A DNA stretch of 64,000 nt from Chitinophagales bacterium. Its GTDB lineage: Bacteria; Bacteroidota; Bacteroidia; Chitinophagales; JADIYW01. The stretch spans positions 62,001 to 126,000 of the forward strand of contig JAMLHJ010000009.1 of NCBI GenBank assembly GCA_023957245.1. The letters are read 5' to 3'. Below, in pieces: positions 19,587 through 52,303 of this stretch. The notes under the pieces are model-generated. The model was not told where the DNA came from and made no database searches. It worked only from the letters and a program-made list of their open reading frames with translations. Numbering within the stretch: the first letter of the stretch is position 1; each line of letters begins with the position of its first letter. A program made the translations under genes and the position numbers.

Positions 19587-20354
19587 TTGGTAATCATCAT
19601 TTTAAGAGTGTTAGCTGATGCTGGTCTGCTATCAAAAGACAATGTGGCTCAATTACAACAGAAAGGGTATGAATACATATTAGGTGCTAAAATCAAAACA
19701 GAATCAGTACAGATAAAAGAAAAAATTTTCCAGTTAGACTTAAAAAATGGAACAACTACTGTGATAGATAAAGATGAGCACACACGACTAATTATCAGCT
19801 ATTCAGATGCAAGAGCACGCAAAGATGCATACAATAGACTACGTGGAATAGAAAAACTCAATAAACAAATCCAATCTGGAAAACTATCCAAAACACAGAT
19901 AAATAACAGAGGCAATAATAAGTTTTTAGAGATGGAAGGTAGCATTCATATCCAGCTCAATCAGGATAAAATAGAAGCAGATGAAAATAAAAGGATACCT
20001 AACCAATACAAGTCTTAGCAACGACGAGGTATTGGATAAAAACAAGCATAAATGGCGTATTGAGAAAGCCTTTAGAGTGCAAAAACAGACTTGAAAATAC
20101 GTCCAATATAGCATCGCTTACAAAGAAGAATAGAAGCTCACATCTGCATTTCGTTTATTGCTTACAAAGTGTACAAAGAGTAGGAACACAAGTTATAAGA
20201 AAAACAATCAAGTCTAAGTCCCGAAAATGTAATAGACATAGCCAAAACTATATTTACCATCAAGATTGTCCATCCAATCTCGAAAGATGTGTACTTCAAA
20301 ACGCTTATTATTACTGAGGAACAGCGACTATTAGCAAATATGTTCGGATTCTAG
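19587..20354 (+). pseudogene. Decayed IS1634-like transposase, C-terminal part
   Basis: The first 140 codons read LADAGLLSKDNVAQLQQKGY, EYILGAKIKTES, SYSDARARKDAYNRLRGIEK and INNRGNNKFLEMEG, the internal part of an IS1634/IS4-superfamily DDE transposase (the D of ADAGLLS is a catalytic residue). The amino-terminal half is missing. The frame is then broken several times, but recognisable pieces follow in other frames: GYLTNTSLSNDEVLDK, WRIEKAFRV, AKTDLKIRPI-stop-HRL (TAG at 20109-20111), EAHICISFIAYKVYKE, and IVHPISKDVYFKTLIITEEQ ending NMFGF-stop at 20354. At least two frameshifts and one nonsense change are needed to explain this, so the element is dead. It lies between the relE remnant and the terminator of the giant surface-protein gene. 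Confidence 0.82.
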
Positions 20355-20434: not shown

Positions 20435-23400
20435 TTATTGTTTCACAAACTTAGCATCAAAGCTTTCTAGAGTTGCTTTATTGACAATAGATATCATATA
20501 AGCACCTTGAGCATATTTCTGTGCATCTATCACAAAAGTATTTTTGCCTTTTACTAATGGTTTAATTTCTGAATGCATCACCTGACCAAGTGTGTTCACA
20601 ATTTTTACTTCAAAGTCTGAATCCTGAACAACAGCCATTTCTACAGTTGTCAAACCATCTGTAGGGTTTGGATAGACAGATAAAATTGCAGTATGATTAT
20701 CATTCGAAACTTTATCATCCAACTCGATGTCAATAATATTGCTGTATTCAAATTTACCATCAAAATCTACAATTTTAAGTCTGTAGTAATTATGACCTTG
20801 AACAGGTTCTTGATCTACAAACATATAATTATTAACTTGGTTGGAATTACCATTTGCAGCTACAATACCTATTGCACCAAATGATTTAGCATCAACTGAT
20901 TTTTCTACAATAAAATGTTCAGTATTTTTCTCTGAAGCTGTCATCCAGTTTAAGATATTTTCCTTCTCGTTATTATATCCTGTAAGAGATATTAACTCAA
21001 CAGGTAATACTGGAGGCTCTAATGGTGATTTGAAAATATAAATCTGACCACTACTTCCATCATTATCATCATCTTGACCTAAAATCTGTACAACATAAGT
21101 TTTACATTCGTCCAATTTATAAGTCTGAGAGAAAGTCATAGAAGGACTACATCCTATACAAGTACCAAACGGCACACAGTTGATAAGTGTTCCATCTGAA
21201 ACACCATCACAAGGTGTTACATCTTCATAAATCGCCAATGCAGTATTGGAACCGACATTATTCACGCTAAATACAATACTTAAAGTATCTGGGTGTCCAT
21301 CTGCAGTAGCACCGCACTCTGTATTGAATGTAAAATAGTTAGCAGAAGTAGCACCACCTGGAAGACAATTACCATAGATACCTCCACTGTTATTCAAAGG
21401 AGAATTGTCTTCATCTAGATTCCAGCATTGAGGAACATCATATTCCAAAGTAGGTACCGAAGAACAAGCTATTTTAGGTTCACAATGAGTAGAAATACAC
21501 AAACCATAAGTAGGTCTAGATGGGTTAGGTGCATTATCATTAAACACTTGCAAGTAGATAGTTTCACCAGGAGAAGCTGCGATATCAAATTCTATATCTT
21601 TACCTAGTCCACCATAATCACAACCCAAGAATTGTAATTGACCAGTACAAGGATTGCCTCTATATGCACCTATTACTTGTTTGGAGTTATTTACTCCTCC
21701 AGCACCAAATTCATCATCTCCTTGTATTTTCACACCACCTTCTGCATCTGAAGGTACTGTAAACTTGTACCAGTAATCACTACAATTGGTAATACTACCA
21801 CAACTCAAACCTACAGAAGAACGATTAGCACAATCTATACGTGGAGTTGAAGATGAAGAAATAAAGTTATTTGTATAATTCATAGAACCATCAGAACAAG
21901 GAGCATCCACCACATAAGCAGATAAGTCATAAGCTCCTGGAAGATTGCAAGGTTCATCATTTGGTACTGCACTACATACAACAGGAATTGTTTGATATTG
22001 GTTAAGTACTTTGACTGTATAGTTACCTCTATCATCCAATGCATCTTGCCCATCTATCTTAAACACATAGGTACGACCAGGAATCAAACATTCGTTTTCA
22101 TAATCCAAATCTCTCGTTAAAACATTAGCACTCTTCTCTCCTATTTTGCTCAACAGTGACCAATTAGGAACACCACCCGTACAAATTGAAGTAACACCAG
22201 CAGGTAGCTCGTACAAGTTCATATTCATATCAATAGGATCTGAAGCTAAACTACGACCTTCTATTTTCACATATCCTTCAGCAGGGGCAACAAATCTATA
22301 CCACATCGTTTCATCATAAGGTTTGATTCCACTATTGAAAGGATGTTGAGGACTTGGAGAAATATCTGGCTCACCATCTTGTGTACCTGCACAGATATTA
22401 TTATCTGAATAAGATGTACCAATAGTTAATAATTGAGGAGTACAAACATTATCATTATTACCTACCACAGCAGGCGTATGTGTCACGCTGACATTAAAGT
22501 TTGTTCCTACTTCACCAAATACACCAACATCTTCACCTTGAACTTGAATATAATAATAAGTATTAGGTCTAAGTCTGAAACACTCTAAAGAGATATCAGC
22601 ATTACCGTTGACAACATTAGCTATTCCAGAATTGGTTCTTTCTGTCAAACTACTCCACACTGGCACACCACCACTACAGATAGGAGATCCAGTCGCTTCA
22701 TATAATACAGCAGATGCGCTGATTCTATCACTATATGGACTTTGATTGGCAATAGAGATATTCCATTCTCCTATTTGAGCAGGAGTTCTAAATCTATACC
22801 ACAATGTTTTATCATAACCAACAGAATTGATATTATAGTAGTCTCCATTTACATTCGGCTCACCAATTTCTTGAGTAGCACAAATATTATTTTGAGCAGG
22901 AGCAGTTTGAGTAGTATTATTGATTGTACCTAAATCTAATGCACTACATATCATATCATGATTTGGAATCGAAGCATCTACATGTTTCACCACCAAATTA
23001 AATGGTCCTACATCATCACCTGGTCCATCATCTCCATCTACTTGAAGATAGTACCACACATTATTATCCAAACAACTGAACTCTGCAGTATTCAATCCAA
23101 GCGATGTACTCATTTGAGTAAGATTACTCCAGTTAGGGTCAGTACAGTCAAAAGTGCCTATCGGAGAACGATATAAAATATAGTTATGAGAATTATTGAC
23201 TGTTATTTCATACTGACCTTCCCAAGCTGGTCTAAATTTGAACCACACTGTTTCATCATAAGCATTGATGGTTACATCATCACCAGAGCCACTCATATTG
23301 CCAGAAGTATTAGGCTCTCCCATTTCTTCCCATGAGCAATAATTTGTACGAGGCAAGGTTACCGTTCCATTTTGAATAAGTGATGGAGTTATATTTTCTG

Positions 23401-26400
23401 CTTGACAAATCAAATCACTTGTAGGCGTATTACCCGCAATAGCACCATCTCCATTATCTGCAACAGTAAGGATAAAATGTCCTTGATCTGATCGAGTAGG
23501 AACTAAATCATTTCCATCAATCTGGATAAAATATCTAGTATTTGGTAATAAACAAGTATAGTTTTTATTGGTAGTTGTACCTGTAATCGCAGAGGATTCT
23601 AAGCCTTCTTGAATCAGTTGAGGCGAAGGAGCTTCAGTGATACGGTAGGTTGGATTAGAGCCATTATTATAAAAAATAGCAAAATTAGGAGTAAAGCTTT
23701 CTGCAAATGCAGGATCATCAGCAACTTTAACATTTATCACACCTGGCTTAGCTGGCGTAATAAATGAGTACCATACTGTTTCATCTTCCAACTCATTTCT
23801 ATGGTCAGTTGTATTAGAGCCATTATAAGCGGCATCGATTCGAGGTTCGTTATCTTCACCAGTCGCACATAAGTTATGACCATTGACTACAATTGTTTCA
23901 CCTGGAGTCAATGCAGTAGGTTTAATTTCAATTGCATTAGCTAGCTTGTCATTTGCTGGACGAGGGCTACCACTACCATTATCTTTCACTTCAAGATTAT
24001 AAGTAAAATTATCTGAGAACAACCAACCAGGAGGTGTTATTCCCCAAAGTGCCATATCATAGCCATCTACTTGAACAAAATAAGTCCAATTGGCAGATGG
24101 ACAATCTAAAGTGACTGTTGGTTTAATCTTAGTAAATCCACCCAATGGTGTCCATGTACCCATATCTGAAGCCACATTAATCAGTCCACCAAAACCACTA
24201 ATACAAGGATTGTAATTTGCAGAAGTTCCTTTATAGACAGTAATACTTGGTAGCGACACAGCTCCTGCAGATAATAATGCTTCTATAGATACTTTAATTT
24301 CACCAGGATTACTAGGAGTTACAAATCTATACCACATCGTTTCATCAAATTCTGGTTCACTCTGAACTGCACTTTGCGAAGTCTCTGGTTCACCTAATTC
24401 TTGCGAAGCACAGAAGTTATTATGATTATTTCTTACTAATGTCCCACCTGAACTCAATAGACCCAAATTACCTGGGGCAGTTCCAACAGGACTAGCCATT
24501 GAACCACATATATCATCATTTTCATTGGCCATGATGGAAGTATTATCCATCTGTAATTTGACATCAAAAGTACCCATTGTTGCACCAAATCCTGGACAAA
24601 CTGTAGAGCCTACTACTCTCAAGAAATAAGTAGTATTGGGACTAGGACAATCAATTTCTATCGTCTCACTTCTAGGAGATAAAACAATTGGTTGACCTTT
24701 ACCAACTTTCAATAGATTATTGAATTGAGTATTTGTATTCGCTTGTGTATTACATGTCGCAGTAGTGAAAGTGCCATTGTATTCAAATAAATCAATATCC
24801 AAATCCATACATACCCCACTCGGATTATTGACTGTAATTGTAAATTTACCTGGAGCCAATACTCCTAAGTTAGCACCTGTATTGAATCTATACCATACAC
24901 TTCTTATCTGATCATCAAATAAACTAAAATTCCATCCTGAGCTACCTGGTTCATTAATCTCTTCAGTAGAACATCTGTTATTATCCTGAGTTACTGTTTT
25001 AGTTCCTCCCGGATTGAGCTGTCCTAAGTTAATAGCATCACATAAGTCGTCATGCGCAGAGTGTCCACCTACAGGAGGCGTATGTGACAAATCAGATCTC
25101 GGATCTCCAGCTAAATGAGTAATCTTAATACTAAACTCACCTGTAGCACAAAGAGAAGCTGGGATACAAGCCACAGGATTATTTGAGCCATCCACTTGTA
25201 AATAATAATATCTTCCTGGAATCAAACATTCTATTTCTACTTTTTCGTCATGCAAAGAGGTAATAATTGCAGGATCATAATCTTCATCTACTTTAAAACC
25301 AGATGCAGCCAAATTACAATCTTCACCAGGGAAGTCAAACAATGCTAAACCTAAATCAATTTTATCATTACCTGAATTGATAGCCTCAATTTCCACTTTT
25401 CCAGAAGACGGTGCTCTGAACTTAAACCATAATGTTTTTTTGGCAGTAAGATTAATCAAGTTAGGAGTTAAAGAATTTCTAATTTTTTCAGCCACCTTAC
25501 CCGAGCCTTCAATATTAGGTTCGATAGTAGCACATTCATTATTAAATAACCCAGTCGCTCTAATACCATTAACTGGCAATGTATTGACATTCATGATCTC
25601 ATAAGCATCACACACATTGTCATTGAGACTAGCAGCCACCGTTGCATAATCTTGAATAGAAATTTTAAAGTCTCCAACTACATCTTTAATAGTAGAACCG
25701 AGGCCTACTCCAGCACCAATACCTAAATCAGGGTCATTTTCACCATCTACCATGATATAGTAAGTCCTACCAGGTTCTAAACATTTCGCCACCAAATATT
25801 CTTCATAACCGAAAGTAGTAAAACTGACAAAATCATCATTATTTGTAGAGTTCATTTCTACTAGCATACCATCATAAGAAGACGCTACTTGTGATAATGT
25901 ACTTTTATCCAAACAGTTGCCCATAGTGAACACTGCCAATTGAAGATTGAGTCTTTCGTGATAATCTTTATCAGATACAGATAGCAATCCACTTGGACTA
26001 TTAGGATTGGCTTTGTCTCTTCTGTTTAGCTGAGGAATATTTTCAGCTCTAATCTTTACTTTACCAGAAGCTGGTGCAACAAATTTATACCATACAGTAG
26101 CATCTGTAGAGAACCAACCAGAAGGCAATGGATCATTGATACCTGTAGCACAAAGATTACTACCATTGCGCCAATTTAATGAATTATAATCCACTCCAGC
26201 ACCTTGAATAGGAAGTGGTTTTGCATAACAAGGTTCATCATTACCAAAAGCAGTTCCATTCTGTACATCTGCCCAACTATTGGATGCCATATCATACAAT
26301 CCAGCATCTTTTACTTGCATAGAGAAATATCCCATCGTACAATCTCCTCCATTGAGGAAATCGCACATAAAATAATCCTCACCATCCACTTGGATATAGT

Positions 26401-29400
26401 ACATCTTACCTGGGTTAAGACAAGTGGCAATCAAGCTATTACCTTCTAAAACGATATTAGCTTTAGTATCTAAAATGTCATAATAAGTAACACTTACATC
26501 CCCTGCATCTGTATAATCTTCTATTCCATGATTTCTAGAGATTAATGGTGACCATAAATATCTAGGATCAGAACAATTAGGATTTTGATTGGCTTGACCG
26601 AGTACTGGATCCCATACTGCTATATCTAAATTGATTTGTTTGTCAGCAGCAGGAACTCCACTTGGAGCAGATTGAGCTGTTATCAATACAGAACCAGAAG
26701 GAGGAGCAATAAATGTAAACCATACATCTCTATCAAGTACTTGACTAGGGTCTGCCAAAAATCCTTTGGTAGGCGTAGCACAGAAGTTGTCAAATGTTTT
26801 ATTTCCACCTGGATCAGAATCTACTGTGCCACCGACAGGAACAGTACCTAAGAAGATAGCACCACAAGGGTCATCATTGACAGGAATATTTCTTGTTGTA
26901 GGTGCAGTTTTTATAGTAGGCTCATAAATCCCTTCAAAACATGGAGAAGCAGGAGCATCCAAAATCTGAACATAATAAGTTGTGTTAGGTTCAGGACATC
27001 TCAATCTAAACTTTCCTGGAATAGATGATGCTTGATCCACCAAAGGAACCTCCCATGCCAAGTCATATTCTGATTGTATTTGGAAAGAAGGATAAACGCA
27101 AGTATCTATTTTTGATTTATAAATATTGACTTTTGAATTAAATAATAATCCAGCACAAACTGTACCCCTTATACCTCTTGAACTAGTATAATCATCTTGC
27201 TCCCATTCTATCCATTCAGCAGGATTGGCATCCGTAGTAAATTGATACCACACCGATGAAGTGTGATTACCACTTGAGCTTGGCCCTCCAGGTGTAACAT
27301 TATCTGGCTCACCTGGATCAGCAGAAGCACATTTATTGGTATGAGGCAAACCAAAGAACGGAACACCAGTCAAAGGAGCATTAGCCACTGTTGTTGTCTT
27401 ATTCAATCCACTCACAACAGATGTGGCAATAGTAGTAGCATCACAAACCAAGTTGCCTGGTCGGAAAGCAGATTTTTTTACACGGATATTAAAATCCACA
27501 TATTCACCGACTCCTATAGGATCTACTTGAATATAATAGTCCGTATTAGGAGTCAAACAGACATCTTTAATTTGTCCATTGTTATTAATAATATCTCCAG
27601 CATCACCATCTATATAAGTAAGATTACTATAATCGGAGGAATTGTCACCACAAGCTCTCGGAGCAGTAGAAGTAGATTTATACAAATATACATCTGGAAA
27701 AGTAGTCGGAACTCCTAGAGCTGAAGGTGAAGATGAAAGACGCTCAGCAATGATATCATAAACATGCATCAATGTATTATCTGAATAATCAGCAGGAGGA
27801 GTAGTGAACTTATACCATACTGTAGCATTTATACTGCTAGTGAAATCTGTATTATCAGGCTCACCACCTGAAGTTGTTGCACAACGAGTAGTCTGATTGT
27901 TTAATAGTAAATCAGTATTATTTGAACTATTTAAAGTTCCCATAAAACCATCAGTTCCAATAGTACTAGAACTTGCAGGAAGACAAATATAATCTGGGCC
28001 TTGCTTTAAGTCTGGACCACCTTTAAGTCTGATATCAAAACTTCCATCATCACAAATTGATCCTGCTCCAGTATAAATCTGAACATAATACCAAGAATTG
28101 GGATCCAAACAAGATACTTTAAAAGAACCTTGAGTTGGGTCAATACCTAATAACAATTCATCATCTGATACAGCAGTCAAACCAGCAATACCTGTACAAG
28201 CACCTGCAATAGCTCTATTGCTTTTATACACTCTCACTCTAGGGAAGAAAGTACCATTGGCAAGACCAAACCAGAAGTTACAATTTCCTCTAGTATTAGT
28301 TAATGAATTATTATAAGATGCATCAATGATAGCTTCAATAGGAGGATTAGCATCTGTTTTAAAACTATACCATATTGTTCTATCAGAAGAATTGGCACCA
28401 CCTAAGGCGGCTTCTCCTACTTGAGTAGAAGCACATTGATTATTTCCTGTAACTTGTGGGTCTGTCACATTTGGGTTGACAATTTGGTCAGCACCTCCAA
28501 TGTTAATTGCATTACAGATATCATCATTAGACGGTCTAGTCAAAGCCCCAGTGAGATTATCCATGCGAATTCTTACATTAAACTCTTGTTCTTCACAAAG
28601 TGCTGGGAATGAATTTCTTGCTTGAATTTGAATATAATAATAAGTGTCAGGTGTAGGACATTCAATTTTCATGTCGCTATCATCACCAAAAGTAGTTGTA
28701 CCTACCTTTGTAACTAAACTATCTTTAGAACATATACTAGGGTCACTTGTAGCCATAGAATAAATATCTACTTTAGCACCTGACAAAGCTGAACCTCCAC
28801 CCTTTGAAGTACAAAATTCTCTGACACCTGATGCATCTATATAAAGATTATCTCCAACATTGGCTCCAGTTTTCACTTTAAACCAAATTGTTCTATCACT
28901 TGAACCAGAGTTTGGTTCACCTGCATCTCTACCAGCACAGAAATTATAAAAGTTACCAGCATTGACCCATGCTTGATTTACAGAAACAGCACCACCAGGC
29001 ATCATATACGACAAATCATAAGCATTACAGATTTTATCGTAAGCAGGGTAATCGCCAAATTTCAACTGAAATTGAAAACAACCTTCATCACCACCATTCA
29101 AATCTAAAGCACAATTATCATCAGAATATCCTGCCTGAACATAATATTCACTTCCATATTGTAAACAAACATTATTGAACCATTCGTCAGAATTGGCAGA
29201 TGAACAAGTATAATCACCTTGCACTCTATTCAAATTAGTAGGAAATGTACAAGCCACAGCACCATTAGCTTTGTATAACTGAACATTCACGTTATCAGAA
29301 CCACATCCATTTTCTTTAATATATACCTTCAATGGTAAAGATGTTTCTCCAACTGGAGCAGCTGGAGTAGTAAACTTATACCAAAGAGTATTCTTCATAC

Positions 29401-30028
29401 CATTATATATTGGTTCACTTCCCTGCGTTGAAGCACATCTATTGTCATAATTCACAGTGGCAGTACCAGAGCCAGGACCTTTAATACCTAAACTTTGGGC
29501 ATTACAAACAACGTCATTAGAGTTATCAACGGTAAAAGAACCACTTACCTCCCACCTATAAGTCATTGTAAAATTCTTCCCACTTTGACAACCTGAGCCA
29601 CCAGAAGTAGCTGTCCTTGTGATGTTAGATCCAGTACCATTAACAGTAGGCAAAGTTTCTGTCCATGAATTATCTACGTTATCTCCATCACAGATAGGAA
29701 CTGAACAACTAGTAGCTCCATCATTCTCACAACCTCTCAGCCTTGTCCCTATTGAAGTAGGCACATCAGAAGCACAAACATACGATTTGTCAAAAATCAC
29801 AACATCAACAGAACTTGTACAACCATTACACGTAGTTTCGTATGTGTGACAATCGCCGTCACCATACATTCTCCACAAAGGGTCAGAATCGCCTAATGGC
29901 CAAACATCACAATCACCAATATTAGTGGATACAGAGACTACTCTTAAAATATAGCGTCTATCTGCATGAGCTTCACTTAAAATAAAGAAGACAAGAAAAG
30001 CGGTTAATATTTTGTATAAAGTATTCAT
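20435..30028 (-). CDS. Giant T9SS type A protein with about 15 PPC-like repeat units
   Basis: 3197 residues, the largest gene here. A signal peptide (about residues 1-22, ending EAHA) is followed by a cysteine-rich N-terminal region. Fourteen units share the pattern N-D-x-C-x-A ... C-A-T-x-E-x-G-E-P ... W-Y-x-F ... C-L-x-P-x-x-x-Y-Y-x-Q-V-D-G. A more divergent unit follows, with its aromatic motif near residue 2753. The aromatic W-[YF]-[KR]-F motif recurs from about residue 216 to 2753 with a mean spacing near 180 residues. This pattern resembles bacterial pre-peptidase C-terminal (PPC)-like beta-sandwiches. Near residues 2995-3100 there is the ELISLTGYNNEKENILNWMT segment common in Bacteroidota surface proteins, and the end (from about 3112, YPNPTDGLTTVEM) is a type A sorting domain. 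No protease or other catalytic domain is visible. It is probably a long cell-surface adhesin or structural protein with many disulfides. The small secreted-protein gene lies 49 bases upstream and is probably co-transcribed. Confidence 0.88.
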   Translation of the reverse strand: MNTLYKILTAFLVFFILSEAHADRRYILRVVSVSTNIGDCDVWPLGDSDPLWRMYGDGDCHTYETTCNGCTSSVDVVIFDKSYVCASDVPTSIGTRLRGCENDGATSCSVPICDGDNVDNSWTETLPTVNGTGSNITRTATSGGSGCQSGKNFTMTYRWEVSGSFTVDNSNDVVCNAQSLGIKGPGSGTATVNYDNRCASTQGSEPIYNGMKNTLWYKFTTPAAPVGETSLPLKVYIKENGCGSDNVNVQLYKANGAVACTFPTNLNRVQGDYTCSSANSDEWFNNVCLQYGSEYYVQAGYSDDNCALDLNGGDEGCFQFQLKFGDYPAYDKICNAYDLSYMMPGGAVSVNQAWVNAGNFYNFCAGRDAGEPNSGSSDRTIWFKVKTGANVGDNLYIDASGVREFCTSKGGGSALSGAKVDIYSMATSDPSICSKDSLVTKVGTTTFGDDSDMKIECPTPDTYYYIQIQARNSFPALCEEQEFNVRIRMDNLTGALTRPSNDDICNAINIGGADQIVNPNVTDPQVTGNNQCASTQVGEAALGGANSSDRTIWYSFKTDANPPIEAIIDASYNNSLTNTRGNCNFWFGLANGTFFPRVRVYKSNRAIAGACTGIAGLTAVSDDELLLGIDPTQGSFKVSCLDPNSWYYVQIYTGAGSICDDGSFDIRLKGGPDLKQGPDYICLPASSSTIGTDGFMGTLNSSNNTDLLLNNQTTRCATTSGGEPDNTDFTSSINATVWYKFTTPPADYSDNTLMHVYDIIAERLSSSPSALGVPTTFPDVYLYKSTSTAPRACGDNSSDYSNLTYIDGDAGDIINNNGQIKDVCLTPNTDYYIQVDPIGVGEYVDFNIRVKKSAFRPGNLVCDATTIATSVVSGLNKTTTVANAPLTGVPFFGLPHTNKCASADPGEPDNVTPGGPSSSGNHTSSVWYQFTTDANPAEWIEWEQDDYTSSRGIRGTVCAGLLFNSKVNIYKSKIDTCVYPSFQIQSEYDLAWEVPLVDQASSIPGKFRLRCPEPNTTYYVQILDAPASPCFEGIYEPTIKTAPTTRNIPVNDDPCGAIFLGTVPVGGTVDSDPGGNKTFDNFCATPTKGFLADPSQVLDRDVWFTFIAPPSGSVLITAQSAPSGVPAADKQINLDIAVWDPVLGQANQNPNCSDPRYLWSPLISRNHGIEDYTDAGDVSVTYYDILDTKANIVLEGNSLIATCLNPGKMYYIQVDGEDYFMCDFLNGGDCTMGYFSMQVKDAGLYDMASNSWADVQNGTAFGNDEPCYAKPLPIQGAGVDYNSLNWRNGSNLCATGINDPLPSGWFSTDATVWYKFVAPASGKVKIRAENIPQLNRRDKANPNSPSGLLSVSDKDYHERLNLQLAVFTMGNCLDKSTLSQVASSYDGMLVEMNSTNNDDFVSFTTFGYEEYLVAKCLEPGRTYYIMVDGENDPDLGIGAGVGLGSTIKDVVGDFKISIQDYATVAASLNDNVCDAYEIMNVNTLPVNGIRATGLFNNECATIEPNIEGSGKVAEKIRNSLTPNLINLTAKKTLWFKFRAPSSGKVEIEAINSGNDKIDLGLALFDFPGEDCNLAASGFKVDEDYDPAIITSLHDEKVEIECLIPGRYYYLQVDGSNNPVACIPASLCATGEFSIKITHLAGDPRSDLSHTPPVGGHSAHDDLCDAINLGQLNPGGTKTVTQDNNRCSTEEINEPGSSGWNFSLFDDQIRSVWYRFNTGANLGVLAPGKFTITVNNPSGVCMDLDIDLFEYNGTFTTATCNTQANTNTQFNNLLKVGKGQPIVLSPRSETIEIDCPSPNTTYFLRVVGSTVCPGFGATMGTFDVKLQMDNTSIMANENDDICGSMASPVGTAPGNLGLLSSGGTLVRNNHNNFCASQELGEPETSQSAVQSEPEFDETMWYRFVTPSNPGEIKVSIEALLSAGAVSLPSITVYKGTSANYNPCISGFGGLINVASDMGTWTPLGGFTKIKPTVTLDCPSANWTYFVQVDGYDMALWGITPPGWLFSDNFTYNLEVKDNGSGSPRPANDKLANAIEIKPTALTPGETIVVNGHNLCATGEDNEPRIDAAYNGSNTTDHRNELEDETVWYSFITPAKPGVINVKVADDPAFAESFTPNFAIFYNNGSNPTYRITEAPSPQLIQEGLESSAITGTTTNKNYTCLLPNTRYFIQIDGNDLVPTRSDQGHFILTVADNGDGAIAGNTPTSDLICQAENITPSLIQNGTVTLPRTNYCSWEEMGEPNTSGNMSGSGDDVTINAYDETVWFKFRPAWEGQYEITVNNSHNYILYRSPIGTFDCTDPNWSNLTQMSTSLGLNTAEFSCLDNNVWYYLQVDGDDGPGDDVGPFNLVVKHVDASIPNHDMICSALDLGTINNTTQTAPAQNNICATQEIGEPNVNGDYYNINSVGYDKTLWYRFRTPAQIGEWNISIANQSPYSDRISASAVLYEATGSPICSGGVPVWSSLTERTNSGIANVVNGNADISLECFRLRPNTYYYIQVQGEDVGVFGEVGTNFNVSVTHTPAVVGNNDNVCTPQLLTIGTSYSDNNICAGTQDGEPDISPSPQHPFNSGIKPYDETMWYRFVAPAEGYVKIEGRSLASDPIDMNMNLYELPAGVTSICTGGVPNWSLLSKIGEKSANVLTRDLDYENECLIPGRTYVFKIDGQDALDDRGNYTVKVLNQYQTIPVVCSAVPNDEPCNLPGAYDLSAYVVDAPCSDGSMNYTNNFISSSSTPRIDCANRSSVGLSCGSITNCSDYWYKFTVPSDAEGGVKIQGDDEFGAGGVNNSKQVIGAYRGNPCTGQLQFLGCDYGGLGKDIEFDIAASPGETIYLQVFNDNAPNPSRPTYGLCISTHCEPKIACSSVPTLEYDVPQCWNLDEDNSPLNNSGGIYGNCLPGGATSANYFTFNTECGATADGHPDTLSIVFSVNNVGSNTALAIYEDVTPCDGVSDGTLINCVPFGTCIGCSPSMTFSQTYKLDECKTYVVQILGQDDDNDGSSGQIYIFKSPLEPPVLPVELISLTGYNNEKENILNWMTASEKNTEHFIVEKSVDAKSFGAIGIVAANGNSNQVNNYMFVDQEPVQGHNYYRLKIVDFDGKFEYSNIIDIELDDKVSNDNHTAILSVYPNPTDGLTTVEMAVVQDSDFEVKIVNTLGQVMHSEIKPLVKGKNTFVIDAQKYAQGAYMISIVNKATLESFDAKFVKQ

Positions 30029-30077
30029 ACTTTTTATATTCTATTTTAGATAATCTTAAAATTACTTTGGCAGTATT

Positions 30078-30506
30078 TTAAGGTTTCGAATTGTCTATTT
30101 GCTGACTAAATACCTCTTTACTTATTGTAGTCAAATTAATTCCTGAATTTAATGCAGCTTTAACTAGTCTATTAATATCAAAGCTCTTTTGAGTGAGGAT
30201 AGCTATTTTATCTTGATTAGGTTGTAGTTTAAGCACTAAAGGATCTTGATATAACTGTATAATCATCCTATCAAAAGCTTCTCCATTATCAGCATATACA
30301 GTAAAATAATGTACAGCATTAGCTTGTTCTTCTTCAGAAGAAATCAACTGTATAAATTTCTTCCAATAATTCTCAGTTTTAAACACTGAAAGTTCTTCAT
30401 CTGTCAATGGTTCGGAACGAAATGCAACAACATCATCCGAACTTTGCGCAAAAACATGAATACTACTAATGAAAAAAAGCAATAAAAAAGTGTATAAAAA
30501 TTTCAT
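30078..30506 (-). CDS. Small secreted protein of unknown function
   Basis: 142 residues. A clear signal peptide (MKFLYTFLLLFFISSIHVFAQ) is followed by about 120 mostly helical, charged residues (AFRSEPLTDEELSVFKTENY, VHYFTVYADNGEAFDRMIIQ, KIAILTQKSFDINRLVKAAL). There are no cysteines in the mature part, in contrast to its neighbour, and no sorting domain, so it would stay in the periplasm. It lies 49 bases upstream of the 3197-residue gene on the same strand. I do not recognise a family. The closeness suggests a role connected with the giant protein, for example during its export, but nothing in the sequence proves it. Confidence 0.65.
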   Translation of the reverse strand: MKFLYTFLLLFFISSIHVFAQSSDDVVAFRSEPLTDEELSVFKTENYWKKFIQLISSEEEQANAVHYFTVYADNGEAFDRMIIQLYQDPLVLKLQPNQDKIAILTQKSFDINRLVKAALNSGINLTTISKEVFSQQIDNSKP

Positions 30507-30902
30507 TTCTCTAATTTTAATTTATTTAAAAATTGATAACTTATCTAATCAAAACACATGTAAAACCTGACAAAAACCTTACAAAATAACCTTAAGCAAC
30601 AAAAAATACAATCTAATTTAGCATAAGTTTAAGACAAATTTAATAATCAAAAAACGATTTCACCATATAATTAATAAATCTACAACATATAGAGTTAGCT
30701 ATAAATTATGTTATTAGATAATAAGTTAACAAATACTAATACTTTAGACATGCTTAATCAAAATACCAATTTATTTTTTTTGACAAAAATCAATCAAATT
30801 TATACAGTAATGAAATTAAAAATTATACACTAAAAGGAAATAGAAGAATTGGATATTGATATCTTTATTTATATCTTGATTTAACGTTGTCAATAAGAAA
30901 TT
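30507..30902. other. AT-rich divergent intergenic region
   Basis: 396 bases between two divergent genes. It is very AT-rich with no credible ORF. Two minus-strand TATA-like boxes of the form TAAATTTG (complement at 30635-30642 and 30795-30802) could serve the secreted-protein operon, but neither has a clear -33 TTG. No RNA fold stands out. Confidence 0.4.
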
Positions 30903-31967
30903 TTGCTTATCAATATTCCATATATCCGTGCAAATCACTGGTGGTCATACAAGACAACACCTATTCTCGGGTTTATCTATTTATATTGTAGTTATTTCAA
31001 TATGCTACCTACACAATTAGTAGCAGTTATTTTTTTCTTTATTGTTTCTTATATAGGCTTTGCTGGTACAGGTTATGCCATCAATGATATTTACGATATA
31101 GAAATAGATAGAAAAGCAGGAAAAAGAAATCCATTTGAAGGCAAAAGTAAATTCTTTAAATTCAAGCTGTTATTTTTTCTATCCTTATTAGCATGGGCAC
31201 CATGGATCTATCTCAGAATGCCTTGGTATATCATTATTTGCTTTATTAGCTTACTCCTATTATTACTGACTTATTCGCATCCTAGTACAAGATTTAAAGA
31301 ACATCCATTTTGTGGACCTATATGGGATGCGATGTATGGTCATGTGCTTCCAGTGCTCATCACTTGTTTTACTTTTCAGCAATATGTTGTCAAAGTCCCT
31401 TATAATGAATGGTCATTTTATTTGAGTTTGATAATTTGGCAGTTTTTTAAAGGGATAAGAAATATACTTAACCATCAATTGGATGATTACGACAATGACA
31501 TTTGTTCAGATACTCAAACACTAGTAACAATACATGGTAGGACTGCCATACACCACAGAATAATGGTATATATTCTGCCTTTAGAAATAGGTTCTCTTAT
31601 TGTGTTTTTAATGACGATAAGCTCTCAGTTTAAAAGTATATGGGCTTTTATTATCTTGTTTTTATTGGTATATAGATTTGGTCACGGCTTATTTAAAAGT
31701 AAAAAATGGGATAAAGAAAATCATCAAAAGAATAGTTATCTCTATTTTCTCAATGATTTTTATGAGTTGTATCTTCCATATTATTTCCTTTTAGCATTTT
31801 GTTTTAGACAATCAGAATACATTCTTTTTTTGGTCGTCCATATCCTTTTATTTCCCACATTTCTTCCAAAAATTTGGATGGAATTTTCTTTAGCAATAGT
31901 GGAGTTTAAAAACCATGTAAAAGATAATATTTTTGTATTGCTACATAGAATTTTTAAAAAGGATTAA
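30903..31967 (+). CDS. UbiA-family prenyltransferase
   Basis: 354 residues, an integral membrane protein with about eight or nine hydrophobic helices. The first Asp-rich motif is NDIYDIEIDRKAGKRNP near residues 60-76, the classic UbiA NDxxDxxxDxxxxRP pattern that binds Mg and the prenyl diphosphate. The second is LDDYDNDICSDTQT in the middle of the protein. UbiA enzymes move a prenyl chain to an aromatic or sugar acceptor; which acceptor is used cannot be read from the sequence. The start is taken as TTG 30903, because an in-frame stop lies just upstream and the first ATG would remove the first 33 residues including helix 1. The 3' end overlaps the convergent methyltransferase gene by four bases. 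Confidence 0.85.
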   Translation: MLINIPYIRANHWWSYKTTPILGFIYLYCSYFNMLPTQLVAVIFFFIVSYIGFAGTGYAINDIYDIEIDRKAGKRNPFEGKSKFFKFKLLFFLSLLAWAPWIYLRMPWYIIICFISLLLLLLTYSHPSTRFKEHPFCGPIWDAMYGHVLPVLITCFTFQQYVVKVPYNEWSFYLSLIIWQFFKGIRNILNHQLDDYDNDICSDTQTLVTIHGRTAIHHRIMVYILPLEIGSLIVFLMTISSQFKSIWAFIILFLLVYRFGHGLFKSKKWDKENHQKNSYLYFLNDFYELYLPYYFLLAFCFRQSEYILFLVVHILLFPTFLPKIWMEFSLAIVEFKNHVKDNIFVLLHRIFKKD

Positions 31968-40599: not shown

Positions 40600-43500
40600 T
40601 TATCTCTCCAAATGTATATAACCATTCTGCTGGATAAGAGATTGGTCATGTGCACTCAATCCTTCTAAGATATAGAAGTAAACTCCTTCAGGCACATCTT
40701 TGTCCTTATAAGTTCCTCTCCAATCTTCTGAAGAACTTTCTGATTCAAATACAATATCTCCCCAACGATTGATAATTTTAATACGATATTCAGATAAACA
40801 TTCAGTTCCTTTCAATTTCCATTTATCATGCTGACCATCACCATTGGGTGTAAAATAATTGGCACCAGATATTTGACATGCATTAACACTAACGGCAATA
40901 CTCACTTTTTGAGAACAACCATTGATTCCACTACCCGTAACTGTATATATAGTACTGACTGTCGGCCTCACCACAATTGAAGGACTTGTCTCTCCAGTAC
41001 TCCATGCATAAGTATATGCTCCACTAGCAAATAATGTCACAGCACTTCCAGGGTTGACAGTCGTATCTGCACTATAGGTCATCTCCATAGCAGGCAATAC
41101 TAATATCGTATCTACTACCAAACTATCACATCCTTGACTACTAGTAAATTGCTGAACAAAGATTGTATCCTTTGTTATTGGGACATTGAGATATTCGGAA
41201 CCATAACAAATTTCTAAATAGCGTTCTGTAATCTTCTGACTGACCGCTTTAAGCTGCAAATGAACAATACTATCACAACCGTAATAAGATTTTAAATTCA
41301 GATGCAATAATGTATCTCTTTCTATTAATACATTATAAACTGTACTACCAATACATGCATTTTGCTGCACATTCAAATTATATTTTGGATAAAACTTCAA
41401 TCTATATTCAATCGTACTATCACAACCATATTGATTGGAAAATTTGGTAACAAATATTGTATCTCTAGAATAATTTACATTGCCAACTTTTATAGTTTTA
41501 CCTTCACAACTATTCAATTCTTTTACTTCATAACTACTTTCAATTAAGCTGACATTCAGTGTCACGATACTATCACAAGCATAGATGCTTTGATATTTAT
41601 TAGTAAACTGACCACCAGATTTTATGATTTTATTGCCAAAAATGATACTATCTCCTTGACATAAATTTCTATCAAATGAGTGTTGAAAAACTGGGCGTAT
41701 AGTTACTTTGGTTGTCACCACGCTATCACAACCTCCAGAGCTGACTAATGTATCTATATAAGTACCAGTTGTTTTATACACATTGCCACCAATAACTATA
41801 CTATCACCTTGACATACATTGACTGATTGGCTAAAGGTAATAACATCTTGAACCATCAATCTCAACTTTATTATACTGTCACATCCAAAAACCGAGTGGA
41901 GCGTATCCGTATAAAGACCTTGTTGACTATATGTATTCGAACCGATAGTGATACTCTGACCGGTACAGATTGTTCTTGTAATTTGTTCAGAAGTAGGGTT
42001 TTGAATAGTCAAATGAGTAGTGATGATACTATCGCACAAACTAACATTCAACAAGGTATCGTAATAGGTTCCAGTAACTGAATATAAATGTGTTCCTACT
42101 TGATACTTTTGACCTTTACACAATGTCGGACGCAGCGTAGTATAAGATTTTAATGCTACTTTCAAATTCAGATTCACAATACTATCACAACCATTTTGAG
42201 CTTTGAGTATAACTGTATAAATTCCTGCCGAAGTATAAACAGAATCTCCCACTGCAAAAGATTTTCCCTCACATATAGTTGCATTTACAGATTGAGTAAT
42301 TTTATTTAATACCGTCAAATTCAATTTAACAATACTATCACAACCAAGAGTACTTTTCAATGTATCAATATAGTTCCCTGACACTGAATACGAATGAGTA
42401 CCAACCATATAAGATTGCCCATTACAAATCGTGGCAGCAATCTCTTTCTGAGTAGGTGCAAAAAATGTAATTATCAAGGTTACAATACTATCACAACCTA
42501 TTTGACTGACAAGCGTATCTTTATACACACCATTCTGTTGTATATCATTACCATTCCAATGATACACATCGCCTTGACAGAGATTGATTCTCTTAGTGAC
42601 GTTATAAGCATTTGTTACTGTCAGATGAGTAGTTACAATACTATCACAATTGGATTGAGAACGGAGTGTATCAATATATGTTCCACTTACTGAATAAAAA
42701 TTATTCCCAACCTGGAAAGAAGAACCTGCACAAATAATTGGGTCTAATATTGTTCTTTCTCGTGGCAATACTGTCAAATTGGTGATTACTATACTATCAC
42801 AACCTTTAGACGAAATCAAAGAATCTGTATAATTGCCCGTAACTGTATAGGTATGTGTACCCACTTTGACCTTTTCACCTTCACAGATAATAGGATTCAA
42901 TCGAGTAGTAACGGGATTAATCACTTTTAAATTCAGAGTGACTATGCTATCACAACCTAATGTATTCTCATAAGTATGTGAATATACTCCAGATGTTGTG
43001 TAAGTCTGACCTGCAAAAACATAAGATTGACCTTTACAGATAGACTTATAAATACTGAGAGTGTCTAATTTTAACACATTCAATTGTAAATGAATAATAC
43101 TATCACAACCATTACTAGTGGCTACCAAAGTATCAGAATACGACCCAGTTGAAGTATAAGTATGATTGCCAACAGTATATGAATTGCCATGACATACAGT
43201 TACATTGATATTTCGTTCTTGAGAATTGATAACAGATAATTTTAATACCAATATACTATCACAGCCCAAATGTGAATTCAAGGTATCACGATATGTACCT
43301 GCTTGTGTGTATAAATTTCCATTCCATGAATAAGATTTCCCTTTACAAATAGAAGCGACAGTTTCATTAATTACAGGCTGAATAACAGTCAATTGCGTAT
43401 AAACAATACTATCACAACCTAAGTTGTTTTTCAAAGTATCCACATAATTTCCCGAAACCGTATAGGTGTGATTACCGACTTTAATTGATTCCCCTTTACA

Positions 43501-43923
43501 TATTACAGGGCTCTTACTTGATGAAAGTTGAGGAAGTACTGTTAGTTGTAGATATACCAAACTATCACAATCATTTAATGTACTCAGATGCAGTTCATAA
43601 AGTCCACTTTCATTAAAAGTATCACCTCCAGCATGATAAGATTCCCCATAACATATAGTAACAGCTTTCTGTATAAGATAGGAAGGGTTGACAGTCAGAT
43701 TCAATGCAACAATACTATCATATCCAGCAGTATTGACTAAGGTATCCATATAAACACCAGTTGCGACTAATTCCTTTTCATTAAAATTATATTTTTCACC
43801 TTGGCAGATAGTAGCATCTAATTGTGTAAAAGATTCCTCTGCTCCCAAAAGTGAAGTGCAAAATAACATAGCACATACCATTACAATCATAGAGTACAGC
43901 TTGGAATATTGAGTATTGAACAT
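40600..43923 (-). CDS. T9SS type B protein with 18 CDSI-type repeats
   Basis: 1107 residues. A signal peptide is followed by 18 tandem units of about 51 residues, each with the pattern I-C-x-G-x-S/K-x-x-[VI]-G ... Y-x-x-x-G-x-Y-x-D-T-L ... G-C-D-S-I-V-x-L-x-L-x-V. Each unit has two cysteines, which suggests one disulfide per unit. After the repeats comes a PKD/Ig-like segment (YAWSTGETSPSIVVRPT) and then a type B (CHU_C, gliding-motility-associated) sorting domain beginning ANYFTPNGDGQHDKWKLKG and containing IINRWGDIVFES and PEGVYFYILEG. The protein is probably displayed on the cell surface as an extended stalk. No enzymatic domain is visible. It sits alone between sbcD and the flippase gene. 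Confidence 0.9.
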   Translation of the reverse strand: MFNTQYSKLYSMIVMVCAMLFCTSLLGAEESFTQLDATICQGEKYNFNEKELVATGVYMDTLVNTAGYDSIVALNLTVNPSYLIQKAVTICYGESYHAGGDTFNESGLYELHLSTLNDCDSLVYLQLTVLPQLSSSKSPVICKGESIKVGNHTYTVSGNYVDTLKNNLGCDSIVYTQLTVIQPVINETVASICKGKSYSWNGNLYTQAGTYRDTLNSHLGCDSILVLKLSVINSQERNINVTVCHGNSYTVGNHTYTSTGSYSDTLVATSNGCDSIIHLQLNVLKLDTLSIYKSICKGQSYVFAGQTYTTSGVYSHTYENTLGCDSIVTLNLKVINPVTTRLNPIICEGEKVKVGTHTYTVTGNYTDSLISSKGCDSIVITNLTVLPRERTILDPIICAGSSFQVGNNFYSVSGTYIDTLRSQSNCDSIVTTHLTVTNAYNVTKRINLCQGDVYHWNGNDIQQNGVYKDTLVSQIGCDSIVTLIITFFAPTQKEIAATICNGQSYMVGTHSYSVSGNYIDTLKSTLGCDSIVKLNLTVLNKITQSVNATICEGKSFAVGDSVYTSAGIYTVILKAQNGCDSIVNLNLKVALKSYTTLRPTLCKGQKYQVGTHLYSVTGTYYDTLLNVSLCDSIITTHLTIQNPTSEQITRTICTGQSITIGSNTYSQQGLYTDTLHSVFGCDSIIKLRLMVQDVITFSQSVNVCQGDSIVIGGNVYKTTGTYIDTLVSSGGCDSVVTTKVTIRPVFQHSFDRNLCQGDSIIFGNKIIKSGGQFTNKYQSIYACDSIVTLNVSLIESSYEVKELNSCEGKTIKVGNVNYSRDTIFVTKFSNQYGCDSTIEYRLKFYPKYNLNVQQNACIGSTVYNVLIERDTLLHLNLKSYYGCDSIVHLQLKAVSQKITERYLEICYGSEYLNVPITKDTIFVQQFTSSQGCDSLVVDTILVLPAMEMTYSADTTVNPGSAVTLFASGAYTYAWSTGETSPSIVVRPTVSTIYTVTGSGINGCSQKVSIAVSVNACQISGANYFTPNGDGQHDKWKLKGTECLSEYRIKIINRWGDIVFESESSSEDWRGTYKDKDVPEGVYFYILEGLSAHDQSLIQQNGYIHLER

Positions 43924-47218: not shown

Positions 47219-50200
47219 CTATCGTTGAACAACAAAGTGCTTTTGAATTACCATATCATAATCTTTAAACTTTAATGTAATTAAATATGTACCTACAGGC
47301 AAATCGTTAATAGAAAATGAAGCACTCTTAGAACTATTGCTTAAAGACCTTTTAACGAGCTTACCCAAAGCATCAAAAATCAGTATATCAAATACACCAT
47401 GACTCTTACTTAATTTAATTTTTAAAATTTCAGAAGCTGGATTAGGATATAATTTAAGGTCAATTTTTTCATTACAATTTTCATCTTCTAAGTAAATAAC
47501 CTTTGACAATTCTGATTGTCCATCATAGTCTTGCTGAAATAGCTGGTAGTACACTCCATCAGAATAAATCTCATCATCAATAAAAGAATAAGAATGTGGA
47601 AGAGATGAAGTACCATTCCCATTGACTTTCCCTACCGTCTGCCAATTCACTCCATTTTCACTTTTTCTAATTTCAAAAAAATCATTATTTAATTCAGAAG
47701 CTGTCTCCCAAGTCAGAAGAGATGTACAATTTATAATTTTCCCAGAAAAAGACACTAATTCTACTGGAAGTGCGTTATCAGTTACAATGATATAGTCTTT
47801 GGGTTGACTAGCAAAATGAGCATTATCAACTATGGAATATCTAAATCCTATATTTCTTAATTCACCATCATCCATAGCATTTCCTGCACCATCCATGGCA
47901 TAAATTACAAGTTTGTCAGGTTGATAATTTTTGATTGTATCCATAGGATTAATCATCACCACTCTCTTCTCTCCACCAAAATCATAAAACAATTTAGTTG
48001 TTGGAAATAATTCATCTATAACGAAAGTACGATTGGTGTTGCAAGACTGCAGGTCAGGGCAATCTTCGGCATCAGACCCAGTGAGACTTCCTTTGTGAAT
48101 ATAACCTCCATCTAGATTTTCATCAGCTGTAGATATAGTATAGAAATCCACAATGTCACCATTTATCAATTCAGAATAAGGCACAAAGCCTACTGGAGGA
48201 ATAATGCTAAAAACAGAAGCTGGGACATTAAAAAATTTAGCATCTGCAACTGGTGGTCGTTGAATACCAAAATCTACATTATTATAATCTGAATCACCCA
48301 ATGGGATAGAAATATTTATCACACCATCAATTAAAGTATCCCCTTCACCAGTATAAGCCCAACCTGATATTGGACTACCATCAGGAATAATAAGACTAAT
48401 CTTATAATTGTTACCTGATTCAGCTTCAAACTCATAAGTACCATCCTCTGTCACATCCACTTCTGCATAAGCAGTATCTCCTTCTAATCTAAGTCTGGGT
48501 TTTGTTGAGAGACTAGATAATATCCCTACTCCAGGTTCTACACTTTCTTGGACACCATTTCCATTTGCATCATTAAATACAATACCAGTAATGCGAATAG
48601 GACATTTAGATTGATTGACATGTACTTCAACTGGCCTACTATAATTGTTTAATTCAGTATCAAAAAACCTTGCTACATAGACTCCTGGTCCAACACTTGT
48701 AATTTGAGAGGGAGACAAAAGCACATCATTGTTAAACCATCTTAACTCAAATTCTGGCACAATTTTAACAACAGCATCATTTAAGTCAACAGTCAATTCT
48801 CCACAAGGAATATCCAAATCTCGCACTTTAGGAACTTCAAACAATTTAAGTCGAGAATTTACGCAATGTGCTGCATCATTCACATTTGTAGGTTGGGAAT
48901 TTGAAAGAAACTCTCTTTCTCCAGTTAATCTGTCAAACTTGTAAAATCCACCAGTATTTGAGAAGCCATAAATATCTCCACCTGCTCCCACCATCGCTCC
49001 AAAATCAGTCGGAAATAATTTTGCTCCAATAAACCCACCATTTCCGTCTTTATCAAACCAATACATTTTTCCTATATTAGCTGAATTTGGAGTAGCAATC
49101 ACAACACCATAAAATTTTTGATCTGTAACGCTATAAGCATAGTCTGGAATATGGACTTGATTAGGGATGGTAATTGTAGTGGCAGACATCGTTTCCAAAT
49201 CTATCTTATATACTAGATTGTTCACATTCTCCTCTTTTACAAAGTAAATTCCATCATCAGTTATTTCTCCTGCATTATACATCTTAGCAGGAGGCAAACC
49301 AGTCACGGGGTCAAGAACTTGAATTAATCCATCTCTCGAAATTTTTATTACTCTGGATGGAGGATCTCGTCTCATTGCATATAGATAATTATCCTTAGGA
49401 TTATATGCAAGTCCATTATAACGTATTCCTAAACCATTGCCTTCAGCATAATATCCTAGCTTCACAAAATCCAAATTTGACAAATCACTCACATCTACAT
49501 TATAAAGATTTGTATTTTCTAATTGTGATAAATACATGTTTTCATCACAAACAAATGTATTGGGCTGGATACCAAAATCAGCATTATTATGGTCAGTAGA
49601 GCCTCCCAACTGAAGAGAATTGATATAAATAATTCCAATTTGATTAGTACCTGACGCTCTTTGAGTGATCAACCATCCTGATTCTGGTACTAGAAAGCCT
49701 GGGTTCGTTAGCACTAAACGAAATAAGTTACCAGACACCACGTCAAACTCAAAAGTTCCATCTGAAGCAACTTCCAACTCATCAATCAAATTAAAGTTAT
49801 TATCTTGCAATTGCACCATAGGCTTTGTTAATGGGCCAGGTAACACTCCCATGCCCACATCAACACCATCCTTGATTTGGTTTCCATCAATATCATGAAA
49901 AACAGTTCCTCTTATTTTTACTGGGCATTTGCTATAATGAACTCCAATAAGATATCTAATAAATTCTTGTTGTTTTTCGATATCGTATAATACTGCATGA
50001 TAATAAGGCTTTTCATAACCCAATCCACCAGCTGGTCCTGCATTAGCAACCTCAGAAGGCGTCATCTGTATTAGGTCGTTGGATAATGGATCATTACTTT
50101 GATACCAATATATTTCCATCCAAGATGGCAATGGAATCTGTGTAGCTTCATACTCGTCTTGTAAATTAACTGTTTCATCTCCACACTTAATAAAAAATAA

Positions 50201-52033: not shown

Positions 52034-52303
52034 GGTTAAATATATTTTAATTACTTTAAAACTGAACCAAAATAGGGAAAAATGACCTTTGTTCAATTTG
52101 AAAGCGCAAATATGCAATCTTTATTTATATTAACAAGTTTAATATAAAGTTAAAAAATCACAATAATTATAAATACCAAATAATAGTGAGGTTAAAATAA
52201 TTATATTTATCATTTACTTTTTTAAAAATATATTTGAAATTAAGCGAATTTCGTCGATAATCTCAATTAAATTATTTGGACTTAATTGTTGTAAATCAAT
52301 AAC

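Follow-up and report, generated by a model that had tools for sequence, protein, structure and literature searches.

A putative type IX-exported stalk in Chitinophagales with a variable C2-like tip and a dedicated tip partner, probably a periplasmic export or assembly factor

What is the role of a small secreted protein encoded directly upstream of a giant one? This question is raised by a two-gene unit on the minus strand of a 64-kb stretch of DNA (hereafter, the window) from a Chitinophagales water bacterium. An earlier note on this DNA had described a 3197-residue open reading frame (ORF) with a 142-residue secreted ORF 49 bases upstream, and the ORF coordinates and the gap agree with that description (Table 1). 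The neighboring listed ORFs (19587–20018 and 30903–31967) both lie on the opposite strand to the pair, and no terminator-like site was found in a scan of 29800–31000, which spans the gap between the small and giant genes; the two genes therefore probably form one transcription unit. In the genus relative Chitinophagales bacterium ACE_NR_BACT6 (G012), the pair is found in the matching place, with proteins of 3,189 and 148 residues.

Table 1. Features of the small gene–giant gene pair, with positions in the window.
Feature	Position	Strand	Remark
Small partner ORF, 142 aa	30078..30506	-	Signal peptide by eye; no T9SS tail
Gap between small and giant genes, 49 bp	30029..30077	-	
Giant ORF, 3197 aa	20435..30028	-	
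Giant signal peptide, residues 1–22	29963..30028	-	By eye
N-terminal C2-like domain, residues 23–166	29531..29962	-	Predicted; no Pfam family
14 PPC-like units U1–U14, residues 167–2686	21971..29530	-	
Divergent units U15–U16, residues 2687–2989	21062..21970	-	Best GBD_T9SS_assoc stretch falls in U15
128-residue stretch preceding the tail, residues 2990–3117	20678..21061	-	No Pfam match
T9SS type A C-terminal sorting domain, residues 3118–3197, and stop codon	20435..20677	-	

The giant had been read as about 15 repeated units, each with two or more cysteines, ended by a domain of the type IX secretion system (T9SS), type A. Both points hold: the array resolves into 14 mutually recognizable units, two divergent ones and the tail, and U1–U14 contain 2–8 cysteines each (98 in the whole giant). 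These 14 units measure 151–212 aa and share on average 25% pairwise identity. Each of them, when left out, was found at 63–113 bits by an HMM of the other 13, and the divergent U15 and U16 scored 15.8 and 7.8 bits, all the left-out rows being drawn from a single alignment of the 16 units. Unit order is kept between the window and G012, where the pair occupies the matching place and every unit is 75–92% identical to its counterpart; the array is thus old and fixed. A length-variable array produced by tandem-repeat slippage was considered and rejected, since the giant gene showed no tandem repeat at the DNA level, the order is kept and the identity of counterparts between genomes far exceeds that of units within the protein.

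The proposal that the units are PPC-like beta-sandwiches stands for the protein as a whole and for the modeled first unit, but not for single units at the level of Pfam. Over the whole giant, the Pfam PPC family (PF04151) scored 30.7 bits against a cut-off of 25.9, all single stretches lying below the cut-off; similarly, GBD_T9SS_assoc scored 39.5 bits against a cut-off of 27, with no stretch passing alone. In a model of the head and first unit (mean pLDDT 66.1, pTM 0.49), the best structural neighbors of this unit were collagen-binding domains from clostridial collagenases (5iku, Z 10.7, 109 aligned residues, 2.7 Å), and the PPC domain present in a Bacillus collagenase was also similar (5sv5, Z 9.2). 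In contrast, none of the 8 units scanned singly (of 16) exceeded the PPC cut-off, the best being U8 with 16.4 bits. The predicted fold and the whole-protein match support the description of the units as PPC-like, with no claim on what they bind. The window giant differs from the collagenases in having 14 tandem divergent copies, in being cysteine-rich and in having no peptidase. On this last point the earlier note was right: no peptidase domain was among the Pfam and NCBIfam families matched by the giant as a whole, and the sole protease-named match, NF052323, reached 15.5 bits (cut-off 600) and covers the sorting tail only. When compared by sequence with solved structures, neither the giant (best E 0.53) nor the A5 (E 1.5) or A6 (E 0.11) profile gave a convincing match, and no report of such arrays was found in the literature on the PPC domain and type IX secretion or on giant genes in Bacteroidetes. 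A role for the giant as an adhesin or stalk is plausible.

The giant has the features of a type A substrate, namely a signal peptide (by eye) and a C-terminal sorting domain over both family cut-offs (PF18962, 36.2 bits, cut-off 27; TIGR04183, 29.8 bits, cut-off 23), and its own genome encodes the T9SS translocon SprA (TIGR04189, 2422.8 bits).

The earlier reading, correct as to the array, overlooked the N-terminus: the first ~145 residues past the signal peptide form a separate domain and not a PPC unit. No Pfam family was found for this head, and none of 12 head members matched a C2 family by sequence at E up to 1. The head model, which is of moderate confidence, aligned with the C2A domain of myoferlin (6eel_A) at Z 9.9 over 125 residues; other near structures were cytosolic phospholipase A2 and the N-terminal C2 domain of Jagged-1 (4cc0, Z 9.2). 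With Foldseek, the best C2 rows had a probability of 1.00 and E values of 6e-4 to 2e-3, and other beta proteins ranked higher with low TM-scores. The head is thus predicted to be C2-like. Acidic residues 101 and 103, as well as cysteines 40 and 108, are kept in all 12 aligned heads. The head shares with the C2 domain of Jagged-1, a Notch ligand, its predicted fold, an N-terminal position on a surface protein and a conserved acidic pair; it differs in being bacterial and without a sequence family match.

Across the 298 genomes of the order, a profile of the head (A1) matched 25: 9 from the window's own family, with 13 places, and 16 from one other family, with 18 places. In the latter (L061–L076, L080), the same kind of head occurs without the small partner, mostly in proteins of ~1,150–1,180 residues by open frame. 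Also related, at 27% identity in A7, is the head of a giant of at least 3,782 residues in an Aureispira MAG (L094 9002–20347, cut by the locus end). There, the head is followed by PPC-like units and then by SprB repeats (PF13573, 605.9 bits, at least 23 stretches); nothing convincing was found for this protein among solved structures by sequence (best E 0.03).

In the small protein of the window, the signal peptide (by eye) precedes short helices and a core predicted as beta-alpha-beta-beta-alpha-beta. Neither Pfam nor NCBIfam holds a family that matches it, and no T9SS tail was recognized in it with either collection. It was modeled from nine sequences (pLDDT 80.4, pTM 0.72), in an alignment that joins three subfamilies on weak evidence of kinship (hhalign E 0.0025, 0.0043 and 0.0093, with probabilities of 4–12%). 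Both fold lists are headed by HMA domains, with a best Foldseek E of 0.018 (none at or below 0.001) and Z scores up to 7.0, which is in the range that may reflect merely a common arrangement. Because further ferredoxin-like folds, for example ribosomal protein S6 permutants, come next at Z 5.8, the claim made here is of a predicted ferredoxin-like fold with HMA as the nearest shape only. The likeness to HMA domains such as those of MerP, Atx1, ATP7B and Pik-1 concerns the predicted fold; unlike them, the window protein is secreted and has neither a CxxC motif nor sequence similarity (no HMA family match for 10 members at E up to 10). The mature protein contains no cysteine in the window form, in the genus relative or in G011, and the CxxC metal-binding pair of HMA domains is therefore absent. 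Six g3 forms and the G009b form have 2–3 cysteines, which in the g3 forms lie mostly outside the core.

Is this small protein a constant companion of such giants? Within the window's own family, 11 of the 13 C2-headed genes, in three genera, are directly preceded, at −14 to +59 bp, by a small ORF whose product starts with a signal peptide (by eye). Nine of these 11 ORFs belong to the three weakly related subfamilies; that of G011 has the same order of elements by eye, with unsupported similarity, and that of G001a (199 residues) looks unrelated to the small partner. The two C2-headed genes without a partner are both in G001. In the other family, 17 of the 18 C2-headed places were inspected and none has a convincing small ORF upstream, a doubtful 107-aa ORF 48 bp upstream of L080 being scored as not convincing and L065 being judged from its locus. 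Since these 17 genes have no convincing partner and two of the 13 lack it, the C2 head does not need the partner. In G004 (L048), a partial giant-like gene has a C2-like start by eye, and an ORF of at least 136 residues overlaps this start by 4 bp; the gene has no match to the A1 profile and was left out of the 13.

In the 298 genomes, a profile of six g3-type small proteins matched those six, each directly upstream of a giant, and no free-standing g3-type gene. The family profile, applied to 13 genomes, gave nine matches at E < 1e-36 and two weak, unconvincing ones (E 0.02 and 0.05); the nine, like the six, are the profile's own source proteins and match by construction. With the window protein as query, only the genus relative was found (2 of 13 genomes), there too upstream of the orthologous giant, and among 395 genomes of the class the protein was found in its own genome only. 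The same query gave 70 pattern matches in genome contigs, none of which was confirmed, and the small protein was not found in plasmids. In viral contigs, none of 31 pattern matches was confirmed. Overall, no copy away from a giant was found at E 0.001 in the 298, 395 and 13 genomes searched. The small partner is a real, co-conserved and new protein group: the earlier note had singled it out as the novel element and had proposed its co-conservation with similar giants as a test, and both expectations are supported, the second within the family.

Comparisons between giants indicate which part of the giant the small gene accompanies. G003b and G009b share an identity of 80.4% over the body, against 39.9% for the C2 head and 20.2% for the small protein. 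Between G003b and G003a, the corresponding values are 36.8, 75.3, and 50.7%, and the switch in identity occurs in G003b near residue 345–350, past the first PPC unit. In trees, the body of G003b groups with that of G009b (100/99), and its head (97/98) and small protein (93/93) group with the A types; G011 and G001a were left out of A6 and the small-protein tree, and the contig-cut G006 was left out of the body tree. The body of G011 is 64% identical to those of both G003b and G009b, and its head and small protein are different again. Judged from these alignments and trees, the small gene, the head and the first unit are one exchangeable block on a conserved shaft, a type A block having been placed on a type B body in G003, which supports the view that the small gene travels with the C2-like head rather than with the repeat array.

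The surroundings of the block limit what this exchange can say about binding. In G002 (L039) and G006 (L045), the A-type small gene has a ferritin gene as its neighbor; in G009 (L038), the two are one gene apart, and in G003 (L035/L049), the ferritin gene sits upstream of the moved small gene of the B giant. The block thus probably moved with its flank. As the small gene and the tip-coding end are adjacent, a single recombination could move both without any binding between the products. The cassette was accordingly rejected as proof of binding, for linkage alone could explain the swap.

Evolutionary rates were estimated by simple NG86 counts and, at pS values of 0.53–0.71, are rough: between the window and G012, dN/dS is 0.47 for the small gene, 0.26 for the head and 0.10 for the rest, with similar dS in all three (1.21, 1.32, and 1.23, respectively). 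In three g3 A-type pairs, dN/dS is 0.18–0.31 for the small gene, 0.07–0.09 for the head and 0.07–0.10 for the rest. By these counts, the small protein changes fastest, and small protein, head and body are all under purifying selection. Only in the window's genus does the head outpace the shaft; in the g3 pairs, the rate of the C2 domain does not exceed, or hardly exceeds, that of the body.

The joint inheritance of partner and tip suggests that the partner helps to build or complete the tip. More generally, we propose that the two-gene unit builds a long surface stalk, that the small protein stays in the periplasm, binds the head and aids export, and that tip and partner are exchanged together, a reading to which we give somewhat less than an even chance. 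Both proteins would cross the inner membrane by means of their signal peptides. Only the giant has a type A tail, by which it would be exported and then held at the surface through its C-terminus; from general knowledge of the T9SS, this would make the head the outermost part and the PPC array the shaft. The small protein, made first and without a sorting tail, would remain in the periplasm. During synthesis of the giant, the head would reach the periplasm first, and the export signal comes last. With its metal-free HMA-like fold, the small protein may bind this head (the C2 domain and the first PPC unit) and keep it folded, soluble or unliganded until the 3,200-residue chain is complete and exportable. 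Tip and partner would vary and be exchanged jointly on the conserved shaft. In this scheme, the T9SS exports the giant as a stalk whose C2 tip varies, and the partner dedicated to that tip is probably a periplasmic export or assembly factor. A narrower version is somewhat unlikely: in it, the partner would be a periplasmic chaperone specific to its substrate, with an HMA-like fold free of metal, that serves the N-terminal tip of the type A giants and is exchanged with it as a recognition cassette.

The main rival gives the small protein a structural place in the tip, as a subunit that would be exported while bound to the C2 head and would take part outside in adhesion or self-assembly. Its evolution, the fastest of the unit and together with the tip, and its swapping with the tip would fit such a role, as would the plant Pik receptors, present in the fold lists in complex with effectors, in which the HMA fold serves to bind proteins. 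However, a protein without a T9SS tail would need piggy-back export, and we judge this alternative unlikely. Slightly less probable again is that the small gene is a functionally independent neighbor kept by shared transcription, its swap with the tip being due to linkage alone. The ferritin gene adjoining the moved block and the near absence of sequence relationship between the small subfamilies speak for this explanation, but adjacency in 11 of 13 genes across three genera, with short gaps that include an overlap, and the lack of any giant-free copy in the genomes searched speak against it.

Another possibility is that the giant is not a static stalk but a gliding or prey-catching filament like SprB. 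In the Aureispira giant, PPC-like units and a head of this type are indeed combined with SprB repeats; the window giant, however, has no PF13573 match, and its tail is of type A and not type B. Ixotrophy with grappling hooks in Aureispira is reportedly T6SS-based, and such a mechanism is unlikely here since the window's own genome has no match to the T6SS protein VipA. We consider a filament of this sort improbable. Finally, a role in metal delivery to the giant, as a carrier of the MerP or Atx1 type, would suit the predicted HMA-like fold, but it is largely refuted for the window by the missing CxxC pair, the cysteine-free mature forms, the position of the g3 cysteines mostly outside the core and the lack of an HMA family match, and is extremely improbable.

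The proposed periplasmic partner of the head has counterparts in known systems, with clear differences. According to one source, type B cargo has cognate, genetically linked PorP/SprF shuttles, and type A cargo is recognized by the common shuttle PorV (PMC12618676). The same text describes the SprB–SprF pair of Flavobacterium johnsoniae, which is similar to the window pair in combining a very large T9SS surface protein with a linked, dedicated partner (PMC12618676). In the window, however, the giant has a type A tail, and the partner is linked to the N-terminal head rather than to the tail; it is small (142 aa), has a predicted soluble, alpha/beta ferredoxin-like fold and no family match, and does not class as a PorP/SprF-like shuttle. 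SkpA of F. johnsoniae, a periplasmic Skp homologue, is presented in another source as a general component of the extended translocon, needed for large substrates including SprB (PMC10994853). It is comparable to the proposed partner as a periplasmic export factor, whereas the window protein is linked to one substrate and has a different fold. As far as these texts describe them, SkpA and the SprF-type shuttles both differ from a partner that is linked to a type A giant and directed at its head, and no description of such a partner was found in the literature searched on T9SS export and giant surface proteins. The stalk is of a known kind, that of the T9SS surface giants; what is new is the partner and the block that it forms with the head. 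If the proposal is correct, the export or finishing of very long surface proteins would include an additional cargo-specific step, at the end opposite the sorting tail, and the tip-plus-partner cassette on a conserved shaft offers a directly testable pairing.

Other large genes were observed near the pair and in related genomes. The window contains, on the minus strand, a 1,107-residue ORF (40600–43923), whose counterpart in G012 (L004 2412–5732) is built of ~45-residue repeats with C-x-G ... G-C-D-S-I motifs (by eye), and a 1,632-residue ORF (47219–52117), whose C-terminal part matches that of the giant (G000:C23:109276-109776, 61.9 bits). For both, the next ORF upstream on the same strand is a large gene and not a small one. 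At L046 11412–11955, the region upstream of another large T9SS-tailed gene in the same genome is an intergenic, dense, short tandem DNA repeat, which in several frames reads as a short repeated peptide (SSIVHRP / MDDGQWT).
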